From Planctomycetaceae bacterium (lineage in GTDB: Bacteria; Planctomycetota; Planctomycetia; Pirellulales; PALSA-1355), in the NCBI GenBank assembly GCA_003153375.1, contig PLYM01000046.1:1-64000 (forward strand): DNA of 64,000 bases, given 5' to 3'. Positions 46,669 to 52,412 of this stretch are shown piece by piece. The notes beneath the pieces were generated by a model. That model made no database searches and was not told the origin of the DNA. It saw only the letters and a list, made by a program, of their open reading frames with translations. Position 1 is the first letter of the stretch, and each line of letters begins with the position of its first letter. Position numbers and translations under genes: made by a program.

Positions 46669-46698
46669 CAATAAAAACAGCCCGCACAAGGCGGGCTG
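46669..46698 (-). terminator. Rho-independent terminator of the 37-aa ORF
   Basis: On the minus strand: CAGCCCGC-cttgt-GCGGGCTG followed by TTTTTATT. Confidence 0.85.
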
Positions 46699-46721: not shown

Positions 46722-46835
46722 TCAAGGAGTCGGCCAGCCGAAGCGGCGTTGAAAGCGAGCCGAGCGGTGTTTCGCGTACCAGTCGCGACGCGATTTGCAG
46801 GGGCTGTGGCGGCGTTTGCGTTTTCCGTCTGGCAT
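46722..46835 (-). CDS. 37-aa Arg/Lys-rich small protein (not in the supplied ORF track)
   Basis: Minus-strand ATG..TGA: MPDGKRKRRHSPCKSRRDWYAKHRSARFQRRFGWPTP; AAGGAG 8 nt before ATG, terminator after it, promoter-like motif before it. Confidence 0.75.
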   Translation of the reverse strand: MPDGKRKRRHSPCKSRRDWYAKHRSARFQRRFGWPTP

Positions 46836-46878
46836 GGCTCGATCTCCTTGTTCGAATGACATTGTCTGTCACTGCCCT

Positions 46879-46908
46879 CCTATGCGGAAAACCAGCCAGG
46901 ATGTTACA
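46879..46908 (-). promoter_or_regulatory. Candidate ECF-type promoter D (37-aa ORF)
   Basis: Minus strand: GTGTAACATCCTGGCTGGTTTTCCGCATAGG; GTAAC to CGC spacing 16 nt, same as motifs A-C. Confidence 0.5.
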
Positions 46909-47125
46909 CCTCAAACCAACCGCAAATGTTTTGCCAATTCAGGTCGCTCAACCCCTGCCAAGAGTTAATTCGTCGTTCGCTGGAATTCCTTACGCCCCGC
47001 GACCAACGGGGGTTCGCATTTTCCCACGAATTAACACCTTTGGGGGATCGCCCTGGGCGATGCTGTTTGGGCCACTCCAAAGCGGCTACACTGGGGGAGG
47101 TTTGTACCTGCCGACCGAGGTTCGG

Positions 47126-47746
47126 ATGATCGACGACGACGAACAGCTCGTAGCCCGCGTCAAGCAGCACGATGTGGGTGCCCTGGCCGAGTACCTGACC
47201 GTCCAGCGGCGGCCCCTGATGGCCTTTATCGAACGGCAACTCGGGGCGGGCCTGCGGCGAAAGGTCGAAGTCGAGGACATCTTCCAGGAGCTCAGCGTCG
47301 AGGCGGTGCGGTCGCTGCCCGAGGCCGAGTTCGAGCACCGCGACCCGTTCGGCTGGCTGTGCCAGATTGCCGAGCGACGCATCATCGACGCCCACCGCCG
47401 CTTCTTCGGCGCTCAGAAGCGCGACGCCGGCCGCGAAGTGCCGCTGGGCAGCCCCGGCGGCGATAACTCGCAGCAGGCTGACATCATCGACATGCTCGTG
47501 GCCTCGATGACCACCGCCACTCAAGCCTTGTCGCGCAAGGGTCACGAGATCCAACTGCTCCAAGCCCTGGCCACCCTGCCCGAGGACCAGCGCGAAGCCC
47601 TCCGCCTGCGCTACGTCGAGGGCCTGCCCTCAAAAGAGATTGCCGAGCGTCTCGGCAAATCCGACGGCTCGATCCGCGTCATGCTCACCCGCGCCCTGGC
47701 CAAGCTGCAGCAAATGTTGGGGGAGAAGACGGAAGGCGGTGGGTAA
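47126..47746 (+). CDS. ECF-type RNA polymerase sigma factor
   Basis: 206 aa from ATG 47126; DIFQELSVEAVRSLPEAEF region 2, LPEDQREALRLRYVEGLPSKEIAERLGKSDGSIRVMLTRALAKLQ region 4. Confidence 0.92.
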   Translation: MIDDDEQLVARVKQHDVGALAEYLTVQRRPLMAFIERQLGAGLRRKVEVEDIFQELSVEAVRSLPEAEFEHRDPFGWLCQIAERRIIDAHRRFFGAQKRDAGREVPLGSPGGDNSQQADIIDMLVASMTTATQALSRKGHEIQLLQALATLPEDQREALRLRYVEGLPSKEIAERLGKSDGSIRVMLTRALAKLQQMLGEKTEGGG

Positions 47747-47943
47747 AAGGCGCGAGGCCGAAGGCTGGAGGAAAATCAGAGGACGACCAATCCGTCAATC
47801 TGTCGGTACAATGGCGAATCATCACTTTGAATCCCGATCGAAGGTCAGCCGCCCTTGATTTCCGCGCCATGTTCCCACGTTCGTTCCGACCTACAGCCTC
47901 CGGCCCCCAGCCTCCAGCCTAGTTCCTCCCGGAGCTTCGCCTG

Positions 47944-50229
47944 ATGTCCGGCTCGTCGGGTAATCTGGCCGAGATCGATGCCTCGCTCATCTGGCAGCAA
48001 CTTTCAGAGCGGATCGACGGATTCATCGAAGCCTGGCAGTCGGGCGAACCGCCGCAACTGGCCGATTTCTTGCCACCCGCTCCGCCGGCCCTGCGACGCA
48101 TGACGCTGGTCGAGGCGATCAAGGTCGATCTCGAATATCGCTGGCAACCGGGCGGCACGCCCAAGCTGATCGAACAGTATGTCGCCGAGTTTCCCGAGTT
48201 GGCCGCCGAGGCGGGCGTGCCCTGCGACATCATCTACGAGGAATATCACATCCGCAAACAGCAGGGCGAAGCGGTCAAGATCGGCGAGTACTGCGATCGC
48301 TTTCCCGCGCACGTCGAAGAGCTGCGGCGACTGTTCCGTCTCGAGTCGCCCGAACAAACCACGGCCATGATGCCGGCCGAGCGTCCGCCGGTGTTCGAGG
48401 CCGGCCAGACGGTGGACGATTTCGATCTGCTGGCGGCGCTAGGCAAGGGGGCGTTCGCCACGGTCTTTCTCGCTCGGCAGCGTTCGATGCAGCGGCTCGT
48501 GGCGCTCAAGATCTCACGCGATCGGGGCTTCGAGCCGCAAACGCTCGCCCAGCTCGATCATCCGCACATCGTGCGCGTGTTCGATCAGCGGCAAATGCCC
48601 GAGTTCAAGCTGCGGCTGCTCTACATGCAGTACATCGCCGGCGGTACGCTACAAAGCGTGGTCGAATACGCTCGCGAGGTGCCCCCTGCGCTGCGATCTG
48701 GCGCAACGTTCCTCGAGGCCATCGACAAGGCGCTCGAGCGTCGCGGAGAGCAGCCCCCCAGCGATTCGATGGCCCGCTATCGGCTGCAACGGTCCACCTG
48801 GCCCCAGGTCGTCTGCTGGCTGGGCGGTCGGCTGGCCGCGGCACTGGCCTATGCCCATCAGCGCGGCGTGCTGCATCGCGACGTCAAGCCGGCCAACGTG
48901 CTGGTGGGCGCCGATGGCCATCCCAAGGTGGCAGATTTCAACATCAGTTTTTCCAAGCTCGACGGCGCCACGCCAGCGGCCTATTTTGGCGGCAGCCTGG
49001 CCTACATGTCGCCCGAACAGCTCGAAGCCTGCGACCCCGCGCATTCGCGCCAGCCCGACGAACTCGACGGCCGCAGCGACGTCTACTCCTTGGGCGTGAT
49101 GCTCTGGGAATTGCTGACGCTCAAACGGCCCTTCGACGACAGCGCGCTGGCCGAAACCTGGTCCTCGGCTCTGTCGCGAATGACGAACTTGCGCCGCGCC
49201 GGCATTGGGCCCGAAGCGCGCGGCACGCTGCCGGCCGATTGCCCGCGATCGGTCAGCACGGCGCTACTCAAGTGCCTGGAGCCCGACGTCGACAAACGCT
49301 ACGCCTCGGCCGGCGAGTTGGCCCGGCAGCTCGACCTGTGCCTGCAACCGCGGGCCCACGCGCTGTTCGAGGGGGCCGGCGACTGGCGGGCCGTGTTCAA
49401 GCGCCATCCCGTCACGACCACGCTGACCATCGGCTTGCTGCCGAACCTCGTGATGTGCGTGTTGAACATTCTGTTCAACTGGTTCAAAGTCATGCCGCAA
49501 CTCAGCGAGGAACAGCAGCGAGTGTTCTTCGACTTTCAAATCCTCACGGTCAACGGCGTGTCCTACACGATCGGGCTGGGATACATTTGCTATACCCGCA
49601 TGCCCATGTTTCGCACCTTGGCGCGTCTGGCCCGGGGAGAGAAGGTCGAGCCGCCTTCCGACGAGATGCTGCGTCGCTGCTTGAAGATGGGCCAGGCCAC
49701 GGGTGTCGTGACGGCGGCGCTGTGGACCATCGTGGGCATTATCATTCCGTTCTGGCTGGCGTTTGCCGACCCGGCGAACCCGGTGCCCCAGAGCATTTTC
49801 ACGGCCTTCATCCTATCGCTCTTTCTCTGTGGCATGATCGCGGCCACGCAAAGTCATCACCTGGTGACTTACTTGTGCGTCCACTATTGCTGCCCCTGGT
49901 TGCTCAAGGCCCGCCCCGTCGATGCGCGCGAAGTGAGTGACCTGGCTGCTTTGGCGCAACGCGGCCGCCTCATTCTGGCGCTGACGTTTTCCGTTCCCTT
50001 CGTGGCGCTGTTCGCCGTACTGCTGCTCTCGGCCTTTGGCATGCTGAGCGACAGCGACGACCGGGTTGCGCTGGGAGCCTTGTGCGGGGTCGGCATGGTG
50101 GGCTGTGCGCTGGCCTATGTTCTCGATCTCGCGACCCGGGCCGATCTGACGGCCTTTGCCGGGGCCATGAATCCCGACGGCGAGGCGCTGACCGACACGC
50201 GCGATTCGTTTCTCACGGGGTCGCGCTGA
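47944..50229 (+). CDS. Membrane Ser/Thr protein kinase with DFN in place of DFG
   Basis: 761 aa; LGKGAFATVFLARQ, HRDVKPANVLV, VADFNISFSK, YMSPEQ; four or more C-terminal TM segments; downstream of the ECF sigma gene. Confidence 0.92.
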   Translation: MSGSSGNLAEIDASLIWQQLSERIDGFIEAWQSGEPPQLADFLPPAPPALRRMTLVEAIKVDLEYRWQPGGTPKLIEQYVAEFPELAAEAGVPCDIIYEEYHIRKQQGEAVKIGEYCDRFPAHVEELRRLFRLESPEQTTAMMPAERPPVFEAGQTVDDFDLLAALGKGAFATVFLARQRSMQRLVALKISRDRGFEPQTLAQLDHPHIVRVFDQRQMPEFKLRLLYMQYIAGGTLQSVVEYAREVPPALRSGATFLEAIDKALERRGEQPPSDSMARYRLQRSTWPQVVCWLGGRLAAALAYAHQRGVLHRDVKPANVLVGADGHPKVADFNISFSKLDGATPAAYFGGSLAYMSPEQLEACDPAHSRQPDELDGRSDVYSLGVMLWELLTLKRPFDDSALAETWSSALSRMTNLRRAGIGPEARGTLPADCPRSVSTALLKCLEPDVDKRYASAGELARQLDLCLQPRAHALFEGAGDWRAVFKRHPVTTTLTIGLLPNLVMCVLNILFNWFKVMPQLSEEQQRVFFDFQILTVNGVSYTIGLGYICYTRMPMFRTLARLARGEKVEPPSDEMLRRCLKMGQATGVVTAALWTIVGIIIPFWLAFADPANPVPQSIFTAFILSLFLCGMIAATQSHHLVTYLCVHYCCPWLLKARPVDAREVSDLAALAQRGRLILALTFSVPFVALFAVLLLSAFGMLSDSDDRVALGALCGVGMVGCALAYVLDLATRADLTAFAGAMNPDGEALTDTRDSFLTGSR

Positions 50230-50241
50230 GCCGTTCGTGTC

Positions 50242-50430
50242 TTAGCGCTCCGACTTTCGGCGACGCAGGTTGAACTGGTCGGCCAGCGTCGTGGGCTCCT
50301 GGCGGTCCGACTCGCTGCCGTGCAGTTCGGTCGAGGGGTTGAGCGGGGCATGCGAACGACGGGTCGAACGCAGGGCACCGTTGTGGATCGTGGCGAGAAG
50401 CTGAGGGTCAGCATTGTAGAAGCGATTCAT
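50242..50430 (-). CDS. Hypothetical small protein (62 aa)
   Basis: MNRFYNADPQLLATIHNGALRSTRRSHAPLNPSTELHGSESDRQEPTTLADQFNLRRRKSER; AAGGGG before ATG; promoter-like motif C upstream. Confidence 0.6.
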   Translation of the reverse strand: MNRFYNADPQLLATIHNGALRSTRRSHAPLNPSTELHGSESDRQEPTTLADQFNLRRRKSER

Positions 50431-50494
50431 GGCGATGCCCCTTACGTGAGAAGTTTTCGACGGGCGGCACACCCCTTGTGGCCTCCCTACACTT

Positions 50495-50522
50495 CCCAGC
50501 GTGCGAACCGGCGATTTGTTAC
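50495..50522 (-). promoter_or_regulatory. Candidate ECF-type promoter C (62-aa ORF)
   Basis: Minus strand: TGTAACAAATCGCCGGTTCGCACGCTGGG, 65 nt upstream of ATG. Confidence 0.65.
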
Positions 50523-50706
50523 AAGCCGCCGGCAACTTTTCGCGACGCGGTCTGGCGTGCTTCCGTGCGCAAGAAACTGGCGTGCTTCAGGGCGCAAGAA
50601 AGAAGCCAACGGCCGGTGAACCGTCGACGGTTTACCGGCCGCTGAGCTTTTGGGTGGTGCGATGCTTCCTGCGGATCCGTCGTTCCTCCTTTCTTGCTTG
50701 GGGGGC

Positions 50707-51423
50707 CTACTCTTGCGTTGCTTCCAGGTCGCTCGTTGGGATCGAGGCAATCACCGCTGCCGGGTCCGTCGCGTCGCCCATTTCGACCGCTTGCGTCGCT
50801 TCGGTCACCGGGCTCGTGGCATCGTCGCAACCGTAGCCATAGCTCGAGCCGTAACCGTAAGGCGAGCCGAAGCTACAACCATAACCGTAGCCGAACGGCG
50901 AGCCGTAGCAGCCATAACCGCCCCAGGGAAAGCAGCCGAACCCGCAACCCCAGAACGGATTGCACCCGGGGTGCGACTTGCTGCCCATCGACGAAGTCGA
51001 TAGAGACTGCTTCGACGTCGACAGGGACTGTTTGCTGTGCGCCAGGTCGTGAATGCTCTTGTTCAGCGAGCTCTGGCTCGACTTCGTCGTGCTGACCTCC
51101 TTCGCCAGGTCTTTTTGCATGGCCTGCTTGCCGCTCACCGTCTTGGTCGTGACATTCTTGCCCGTCAGCTTGTGGATCGAGCCGTTGTTCGTCGTGACGT
51201 GGCTGGTCGCCACCTTCTGGGACAGGCTGCTATTGGATTGAAACGTGCTGGATTTGAATTGGCTCGACTGGACGGGGCTGCTGTGCGACATGCCGCTCGT
51301 CGTGCTGCTGCCGGAGTGGCCGCCGCCGTGACCCGCCAGAGCCGTGGAACCCACCGAAACGAGGCCCGTCGCGGCCAGAATCGCCAAAGTCTTCGCCACG
51401 CGGTTGATTCGTTGAGTCGTCAT
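50707..51423 (-). CDS. Secreted Ser-rich / Gly-Tyr-Cys-rich protein
   Basis: 238 aa; signal peptide; GHGGGHSGSSTTSG, Ser/Lys/Gln-rich middle, GCYGSPFGYGYGCSFGSPYGYGSSYGYGC. Confidence 0.85.
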   Translation of the reverse strand: MTTQRINRVAKTLAILAATGLVSVGSTALAGHGGGHSGSSTTSGMSHSSPVQSSQFKSSTFQSNSSLSQKVATSHVTTNNGSIHKLTGKNVTTKTVSGKQAMQKDLAKEVSTTKSSQSSLNKSIHDLAHSKQSLSTSKQSLSTSSMGSKSHPGCNPFWGCGFGCFPWGGYGCYGSPFGYGYGCSFGSPYGYGSSYGYGCDDATSPVTEATQAVEMGDATDPAAVIASIPTSDLEATQE

Positions 51424-51485
51424 CGCAGCACCTTCTTCTTGCTCGAACTATTGTTTTGGCCAGGCGACTTGCTTGGCTCTACCAT

Positions 51486-51515
51486 CCCCAGCGGAAGGCC
51501 GTGGGATTTGTTACA
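51486..51515 (-). promoter_or_regulatory. Candidate ECF-type promoter A (Gly/Tyr protein 1)
   Basis: Minus strand: TGTAACAAATCCCACGGCCTTCCGCTGGG, 63 nt upstream of ATG 51423. Confidence 0.7.
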
Positions 51516-51600
51516 CGATCCGGCAAAAAGAATCTGTGGGCCGCTCGCAGCCTCGGCATAAGCACTCCTTAAGTAATTGAAGATTAAGGACTTAAACAAT

Positions 51601-51638
51601 ACGGCCGGAAACCCGTTTGGGGGCAGGCTTCCGGCCGT
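51601..51638 (-). terminator. Hairpin downstream of the 51755-52312 gene, possible terminator
   Basis: Perfect 10-bp ACGGCCGGAA ... TTCCGGCCGT stem; no strong U tract. Confidence 0.5.
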
Positions 51639-51754
51639 TTGGGGTCAGGAAGTCCCAAGGGTTGTCAGTCCTCGGGATCGCTCTTTCCCAGCTACGGATA
51701 TTCAATCCATGGAGCCTGGCGAAGTTGCCTGACGCGTTGTTGTCGACCTAGCGA

Positions 51755-52312
51755 TCAAATCTTGGAGTGGGACCCCATGTGCATGCTTCCCATTCCCGAC
51801 CTCATCATCGAATGCCCAAACGAGTGGGGATGCGAATACCAGCTGCCCGCCACTTGCGGATAGCTATAGGCACAGGCGTAACGAGGATAGCAGGAGCTGT
51901 AGCAGGGCGAGCAGCCGTACGAATACGGATAGCCGTAGCCGGAATAGCTGCTCAGGCCGCAACCATAGCTGCCATAGCCGCTCCCGTAACCGCCGTAGCC
52001 ATAGCCGTAGCCGTAGCCGAAGTACGGATAAAACGAGGCATACGGATACCAGCTATTCCACCCATGGTGCTTCCAATTCTGCGATTTCATGAACTGCTTG
52101 TGGCTCGCCATCTTGAAGCTCGAGCTCTTCATCTTGGGGCTGCTGTGCATTTTGAAGCTGCTCTTGCTGTGCATGCCGGAGCTGCTGTGCATGCCCTTGC
52201 TGCCACCCGAACCGCCGTGACTCGCGAACGCCGACGAGCCGGCCATCACGGATCCGACGACTGCCAACACGGCCACCGACCGGGCCACGAACGTTGTTTT
52301 CTTTGCAAACAT
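51755..52312 (-). CDS. Secreted His/Ser/Met/Lys-rich and Gly-Tyr-rich protein (paralog-like)
   Basis: MFAKKTTFVARSVAVLAVVGSVMAGSSAFASHGGSGGSKGMHSSSGMHSKSS...YFGYGYGYGYGGYGSGYGSYGCG. Confidence 0.82.
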   Translation of the reverse strand: MFAKKTTFVARSVAVLAVVGSVMAGSSAFASHGGSGGSKGMHSSSGMHSKSSFKMHSSPKMKSSSFKMASHKQFMKSQNWKHHGWNSWYPYASFYPYFGYGYGYGYGGYGSGYGSYGCGLSSYSGYGYPYSYGCSPCYSSCYPRYACAYSYPQVAGSWYSHPHSFGHSMMRSGMGSMHMGSHSKI

Positions 52313-52383
52313 GACACACCTTCCTTCTCTCAAAGATTCTGGGAACTGTTTTTTTGGCCGTGCAAGTGCAGGGCTCTAAAGGT

Positions 52384-52412
52384 CCCAGCGCAAGGCTCCC
52401 GCAATTGTTACG
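52384..52412 (-). promoter_or_regulatory. Candidate ECF-type promoter B (Gly/Tyr protein 2)
   Basis: Minus strand: CGTAACAATTGCGGGAGCCTTGCGCTGGG, 72 nt upstream of ATG 52312. Confidence 0.65.

Follow-up and report, generated by a model that had tools for sequence, protein, structure and literature searches.

The locus described here raises a simple question: are four short elements of the form GTAACA-N15-CGC, clustered on the minus strand within 5.5 kb, promoters, and if so, does the extracytoplasmic function (ECF) sigma factor encoded among them read them? The window, by which we mean the whole stretch of DNA that was analysed, comprises 64,000 nucleotides from a Planctomycetaceae bacterium (contig PLYM01000046.1 of assembly GCA_003153375.1), and the ECF gene, which starts at 47126, is accompanied by a gene for a membrane Ser/Thr kinase. 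We consider it probable (about 0.82) that GTAACA-N15-CGCT(T/G)nG-N5-T(A/G)G is the promoter for this ECF factor and its orthologues, with the kinase as input and a regulon of exported proteins as output. Computation supports several parts of this reading: the element exists and has a fixed spacing, it is linked across genera to the ECF gene, it sits ahead of genes for exported proteins, and the sigma and kinase genes are linked.

Four copies of one element

A first-pass annotation had proposed four shared minus-strand motifs, A to D, upstream of separate open reading frames (ORFs). All four were found (Table 1), and the exact GTAAC-N16-CGC spacing described for them holds in every one. They do lie upstream of start codons; the 44–72 nt originally given for that distance, on the other hand, does not hold, as the interval from CGC to the likely ATG runs from ~47 nt (D) to 75 nt (B). 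All four elements share an additional block, a pyrimidine-A-G placed 9 nt past CGC, which reads TAG in three of them and CAG in the other. A search of the A–D region for a housekeeping-type promoter, a weak test, gave no match.

From dinucleotide shuffles, 0.09 matches to the loose pattern would be expected in the window; there are four. When ~128,000 window positions are scored with a weight matrix of 52 positions, trained exclusively on sites from other genomes, the top four places go to A, C, D and B at 26.6–31.1 bits, the next-best position reaching 12.4 bits. The whole 6.7 Mb genome holds 17 copies of GTAACA-N15-CGC, four of them inside these 5.5 kb, which thus form a strong local cluster; the concern that the motif might be equally frequent elsewhere is therefore dispelled.

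A profile built from 64 sites reads t-GTAACA-N15-CGCT(T/G)nG-N5-T(A/G)G, with T-rich and A-rich stretches before it. If the purine of the final T(A/G)G is taken as the start, the two boxes fall at about −34 and −13, where ECF promoters have theirs. In sequence, the element thus has what is expected of an ECF promoter, namely an AAC-containing −35, a CG-containing −10, a near-fixed distance between them and a purine downstream, and its interpretation as a putative sigma promoter came through the sequence-based refutation tests to which it was put. Canonical ECF promoters, such as those of the RpoE/SigW type, carry GGAAC and CGTC. Common to both is an AAC-containing −35 and a short CG-containing −10 some 15–17 nt apart; they differ in having GGAAC and CGTC/TCTnA where the window-type element has GTAACA and CGCTTnG. 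CGCTGGG, initially considered as a general consensus, is too narrow, the cross-genera consensus being CGCT(T/G)nG.

Linkage of the element to the sigma factor gene

Orthologue-level matches to the window ECF were found in 39 of 77 relatives, most at 44–75% identity and one, in genome G059, at 37%. In their neighbourhoods (up to 20 kb each, 0.60 Mb in total), GTAACA-N15-CGC occurs 25 times and versions with other spacers 0–7 times. The same element occurs twice in 39 control neighbourhoods (0.63 Mb), taken mostly around another ECF gene of the same genomes, including those of the type found on contig C239 of the window's own genome, while two are arbitrary stretches of G059 and G075. A further 59 loci (0.89 Mb) came from a scan of named genomes that included Rhodopirellula, Blastopirellula marina, Gimesia, Schlesneria and Roseiconus; in these, spacer 15 occurs 32 times (30 with CGCT) and other spacers 1–6 times. 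A 60-base sampling check revealed no overlap between this set and the first 39; within it, loci L271 and L272 share a contig and overlap. When each set was scored with a matrix trained on the other, 18 and 25 sites exceeded 18 bits, and the controls had none. The suggestion that the motif should co-occur with ECF orthologues is thus upheld, both against control neighbourhoods (25 versus 2) and against other spacings (32 versus 1–6). A common genomic pattern, a candidate explanation of the motif, is ruled out by the spacer controls and the control neighbourhoods.

The association extends to whole genomes. With the window's own genome left out, genomes that carry the ECF gene hold 307 copies of GTAACA-N15-CGCT against 150 of the N16 control, and N15 exceeds N16 in 35 of the 40 ECF-bearing genomes when the own genome is counted. 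The 38 genomes without the gene give 144 and 116, respectively, or 99 and 101 once G015, G032 and G065 are removed, three genomes whose genus-mates carry the ECF gene and which were set aside after the counts were seen. The N15 excess tracks the presence of the ECF gene (Mann–Whitney P 9e-6, relatedness uncorrected) and is lacking in most of the genomes that do not carry it. In two genomes, G021 and G056, the element lies ~180–215 nt upstream of the ECF gene itself, on the same strand. From this comparison of genomes we infer a link between the sigma factor and the promoter.

Some arrangements were seen in passing. At L158 (G059:C4), around 9425, the element adjoins a second, more distant ECF gene from which it is divergent; this gene may be a paralogue that prefers promoters of the same kind. 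At loci L271 and L272 of Rhodopirellula baltica BR-MGV (PPHI01000044.1), a single contig carries two equally scoring ECF matches that face opposite ways and have overlapping flanks, the outcome of either an inverted duplication or faulty assembly. On contig C239 (L018, 5991–7840), an ECF gene is followed by a possible anti-sigma gene, which has no Pfam match, and is preceded by a 55-aa ORF and a GTAACA-N15-CGC.

The sigma factor and the membrane kinase

The placement of an ECF sigma gene and a membrane kinase gene between D and C in the first-pass annotation is borne out by Pfam and NCBIfam matches. The sigma factor matches Pfam sigma-70 regions 2 and 4 and, above cut-off, the superfamily model TIGR02937, and its profile matches include SigH, SigW, SigK and RpoE chains. 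Its predicted structure consists of two helical domains, sigma2 and sigma4, joined by a Ser/Thr-rich linker of low confidence. With solely sigma2, sigma4 and a short linker, the window factor is an ECF (group 4) sigma-70 factor. Its best NCBIfam match, over nearly its whole length, is TIGR02984 (Planctomycetaceae-specific sigma-70 subfamily 1), at 138.4 bits against a curated cut-off of 183.75, and it is thus a relative rather than a certified member of that subfamily, whose sigma model has 34 matches in the same genome. The acidic residues of region 2.2 are kept throughout an alignment of the window ECF with 39 relatives, and within A1 this region has an invariant D51 and a nearly invariant E48. 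The sigma2–sigma4 linker contains a conserved SMTTxSQAFSR stretch in which T129 and S136 are invariant; the linker (~101–138) is largely of low confidence in the model, and the T129/S136 stretch lies inside or beside that part.

The ECF gene and a Hanks-type kinase gene show conserved genomic linkage. Relatives of the kinase occur near the ECF gene in 28 of 39 and 48 of 60 neighbourhoods, in differing families, mostly adjacent to and divergent from it, with some partial or non-adjacent. The aligned relatives retain the glycine loop, VALK and HRDxKPAN, and the catalytic residues appear intact apart from the change of DFG to DFN. This DFN is found in every aligned kinase relative (window 47944–50229; L119–L156), the remaining catalytic motifs being intact.

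Genes under the element

Across the neighbourhood sites, an ORF for an exported protein starts within 140 nt downstream at 43 of 56 (77%), against 4.5% for random positions, export being called by a simple heuristic for a signal-peptide-like start rather than by a trained predictor. The target families comprise small Tyr/Gly/Cys-rich proteins, most of which end in TSYWGCY or a similar sequence, proteins rich in Gly and Asn, of which some contain a CARDB domain, a conserved ~300-aa family, and exported trypsin-like proteases identified by Pfam. Genes for such proteases lie under the element near the ECF gene at L156:6684-7871, L157, L268 and L270. A family of small exported proteins found under the GTAACA element (L146, L156, L225, L247, L258, L268, L270) has an acidic stretch (DVDQLAxDAG...EACFR), a Tyr/Gly-rich body and mostly a C-terminal TSYWGCY; the one member scanned had no Pfam match.

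The regulon had been described as local. The cluster beside the sigma/kinase pair is there, but restriction to this locus does not hold, as the two best sites in the genome, C210:32444 (36.6 bits) and C277:585 (31.5 bits), are outside the window contig. Both precede exported Gly-rich proteins, the one on C210 with a CARDB domain. A site at C271:2625 (14.9 bits) also precedes an exported protein, and the status of one at C151:16340 (21.1 bits), inside a long ORF frame, is doubtful. Similar Gly-rich exported genes stand at the ends of contigs C210 and C277 (L019 6181–8199, L020 1–515), where repeated sequence may have broken the assembly.

In the window itself, the four elements precede ORFs of different kinds (Table 1). 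Conservation marks the ORF under D as real: a same-genus genome keeps it, with 81.8% identity over 33 aa, and there too it lies next to the ECF gene and divergent from it; the counterpart of element D there (L119:10160) has the variant GTAGCA and scores 14.6 bits. For the ORF under C, no protein family match, no predicted export signal and, among the neighbourhood loci compared, no relative was found. Pfam SGP matches the protein under A weakly (E 0.0024), short of the cut-off. Terminator-like hairpins stand 3′ of the D, B and A units and merely agree with separate units; they are weak evidence alone because shuffled sequence gives about as many (6.1, against 8 such matches observed).

Table 1. 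Elements, genes and terminator-like hairpins of the locus, in window coordinates
Feature	Coordinates	Strand	Details
Promoter element D (putative)	46880–46907	minus	GTAACA-N15-CGC; predicted start A 46873; matrix 26.7 bits
Promoter element C (putative)	50495–50522	minus	predicted start A 50488; matrix 28.0 bits
Promoter element A (putative)	51487–51514	minus	predicted start A 51480; matrix 31.1 bits
Promoter element B (putative)	52384–52411	minus	predicted start A 52377; matrix 26.6 bits
ECF sigma factor	47126–47746	plus	206 aa; TIGR02984-like
Membrane Ser/Thr protein kinase	47944–50229	plus	761 aa; kinase domain ~160–470, then about five hydrophobic segments
Small ORF under D	46723–46836	minus	37 aa, basic (MPDGKRKRRHSPCKSRRDWYAKHRS...)
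Small ORF under C	50242–50430	minus	62 aa
Exported Ser/Gly-rich protein under A	50707–51423	minus	238 aa; Gly/Tyr/Cys-rich tail; heuristic signal peptide
Exported Ser/Gly/Tyr/His/Met-rich protein under B	51755–52312	minus	185 aa
Intrinsic-terminator-like hairpin and T run closing the D unit	46678–46698	minus	8 pairs, 7 of them GC; TTTTTATT
Terminator-like hairpin between the A ORF and promoter C	50605–50628	minus
Strong terminator-like hairpin between the B ORF and promoter A	51601–51638	minus	15 pairs

Proposed circuit

Direct recognition, phosphorylation, the signal and the physiological role are what we infer beyond these observations. Region sigma4 of the ECF factor would read GTAACA as the −35 and sigma2 would read CGCTTnG as the −10, with transcription beginning at the purine 10 nt past CGCT. 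The membrane Ser/Thr kinase would sense an envelope or membrane condition and alter ECF activity, most plausibly by phosphorylating the ECF factor, perhaps in the conserved Ser/Thr-rich sigma2–sigma4 linker. The output would be a small regulon, partly beside the sigma/kinase pair and partly elsewhere, made up mostly of exported low-complexity Gly/His/Tyr/Ser-rich proteins, together with CARDB-domain proteins and the ~300-aa family; in some relatives, an exported trypsin-like protease would also belong to it. Such an output suggests a surface, matrix or envelope-maintenance response.

Alternative explanations

Chance similarity in GC-rich DNA has on its side the single loose matches that occur within coding sequence elsewhere in the genome, but the excess over shuffles, the top four ranks under an outside-trained matrix and the replication in further neighbourhoods all speak against it. 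Chance origin of the pattern as such is already refuted, and we give this explanation practically no weight. The conserved T(A/G)G block downstream of CGC would also suit a conserved 5′ leader or an operator bound by a regulator protein. The element instead has ECF promoter geometry, its two dissimilar halves standing a constant 15 nt apart and a pyrimidine-purine step following 9–10 nt on, and it is linked to a sigma gene; the lack of a housekeeping-type match, although a weak test, counts in the same direction, and we hold an operator or leader to be very improbable. The promoters could also be real and served by a different ECF factor, for example the one on C239 with its putative anti-sigma neighbour, which has a GTAACA-N15-CGC ~0.5 kb upstream. 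The number of TIGR02984 sigma-model matches in the genome leaves room for such a factor, and G015 has an N15 excess with no clear orthologue of the window ECF. However, the element occurs at just one of 30 C239-type loci, that of the window's own genome, where its matrix score is low (8.1), and the neighbourhoods of C239-type and other ECF genes give the background count of 2 where those of window-ECF orthologues give 25 and 32. The C239 factor was rejected as the main candidate for these reasons, and service by a different ECF is improbable, if less so than an operator.

The remaining alternative accepts the link between promoter and ECF factor and removes the kinase from control, the ECF factor being governed by expression of its own gene or by some unknown anti-sigma factor. 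Since the acidic residues of region 2.2 are kept, core binding without phosphorylation is conceivable; the ECF gene seems autoregulated in two genomes, and about a quarter of the loci have no kinase relative found nearby. Weighed against this are the kinase relatives near the ECF gene across families, and the phosphorylation control that has been proposed for kinase-adjacent ECF groups (PMC8999054) and demonstrated directly for EcfK (PMC13147305). This arrangement is unlikely on balance, yet it is the alternative to be taken most seriously.

Several observations also weigh against the reading we prefer, in which the window ECF serves the element under control of the kinase. The missing kinase relatives at about a quarter of the ECF loci are among them, although some of these loci are at contig ends. 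The control regions were incompletely matched to the ECF neighbourhoods, a strong site (>14 bits) was found within ~10 kb in just 15 of the 39 relative neighbourhoods, and the genome-wide co-occurrence tests carry no correction for phylogeny. G015 is near-complete and has no clear ECF orthologue, yet its N15 excess is 23:6. In the window, no good site was found upstream of the ECF or the kinase gene, and autoregulation is thus not general; the ORFs under C (62 aa) and D (37 aa) have no predicted export signal.

Relation to known systems

Pairs of ECF factor and kinase are already known. The ECF43 modules EcfP–PknT of Vibrio parahaemolyticus and EcfK–PknS of Xanthomonas citri (PMC8999054, PMC13147305) resemble the window pair in three ways: the gene next to that of the ECF factor encodes a Hanks-type Ser/Thr kinase, the module has a regulon of its own, and the sigma2–sigma4 linker contains Ser/Thr residues. 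They differ in that ECF43 factors have lost the acidic DAED/DxxD of region 2.2 and carry a phospho-Thr there (QTTA/STTA). Window-type factors keep the acidic residues; membership in ECF43 was therefore rejected, and the ECF43 rule is not applicable to them. The targets differ too, being the type VI secretion system or polymyxin resistance for ECF43 and exported low-complexity proteins here. In EcfK of Xanthomonas, PknS phosphorylates the linker, and T51 or T106 is needed (PMC13147305); by analogy, a phosphorylation site in the linker of window-type factors is plausible. We tentatively suggest, as a possibility short of an even chance, a route unlike the ECF43 rule, in which a membrane kinase with an unusual DFN motif would activate, through linker phosphorylation, an ECF factor whose core-binding residues are normal, and thereby an exported Gly/His/Tyr-rich surface or matrix proteome, in a circuit conserved across genera.

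Closer to home, the planctomycete kinase-linked groups ECF59, ECF61, ECF62 and ECF217, which PMC8999054 lists following the 2021 reclassification, are predicted to be phosphorylation-controlled and described with a DAED-like motif kept. They share with the window pair a planctomycete ECF gene beside a Ser/Thr kinase gene, and the window ECF may belong to one of them. No experimental promoter or regulon for these groups was found in the literature searched, which did not extend to the 2021 ECF reclassification; a predicted motif for the window ECF's group may already be in that classification. In the stress transcriptome of Rhodopirellula baltica, the ECF factor RB138 rises with the kinase RB140 (PMC2754498), a pair that may or may not correspond to that of the window. 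Within the same literature, nothing was found on GTAAC in Planctomycetes or on exported Gly-rich proteins in Rhodopirellula, and the promoter and the regulon are apparently undescribed there.

Implications for planctomycete regulation

Few targets are known for the dozens of ECF factors and Ser/Thr kinases that planctomycetes encode. One conserved sigma/kinase pair can now be assigned an exact promoter sequence, along with predicted transcript starts and targets listed across genera; these genera include cultured strains (Blastopirellula marina, Rhodopirellula europaea and Roseiconus), and the circuit is thus directly testable. It would also provide a regulatory handle on a group of uncharacterised low-complexity exported proteins, possible building material of the planctomycete surface.

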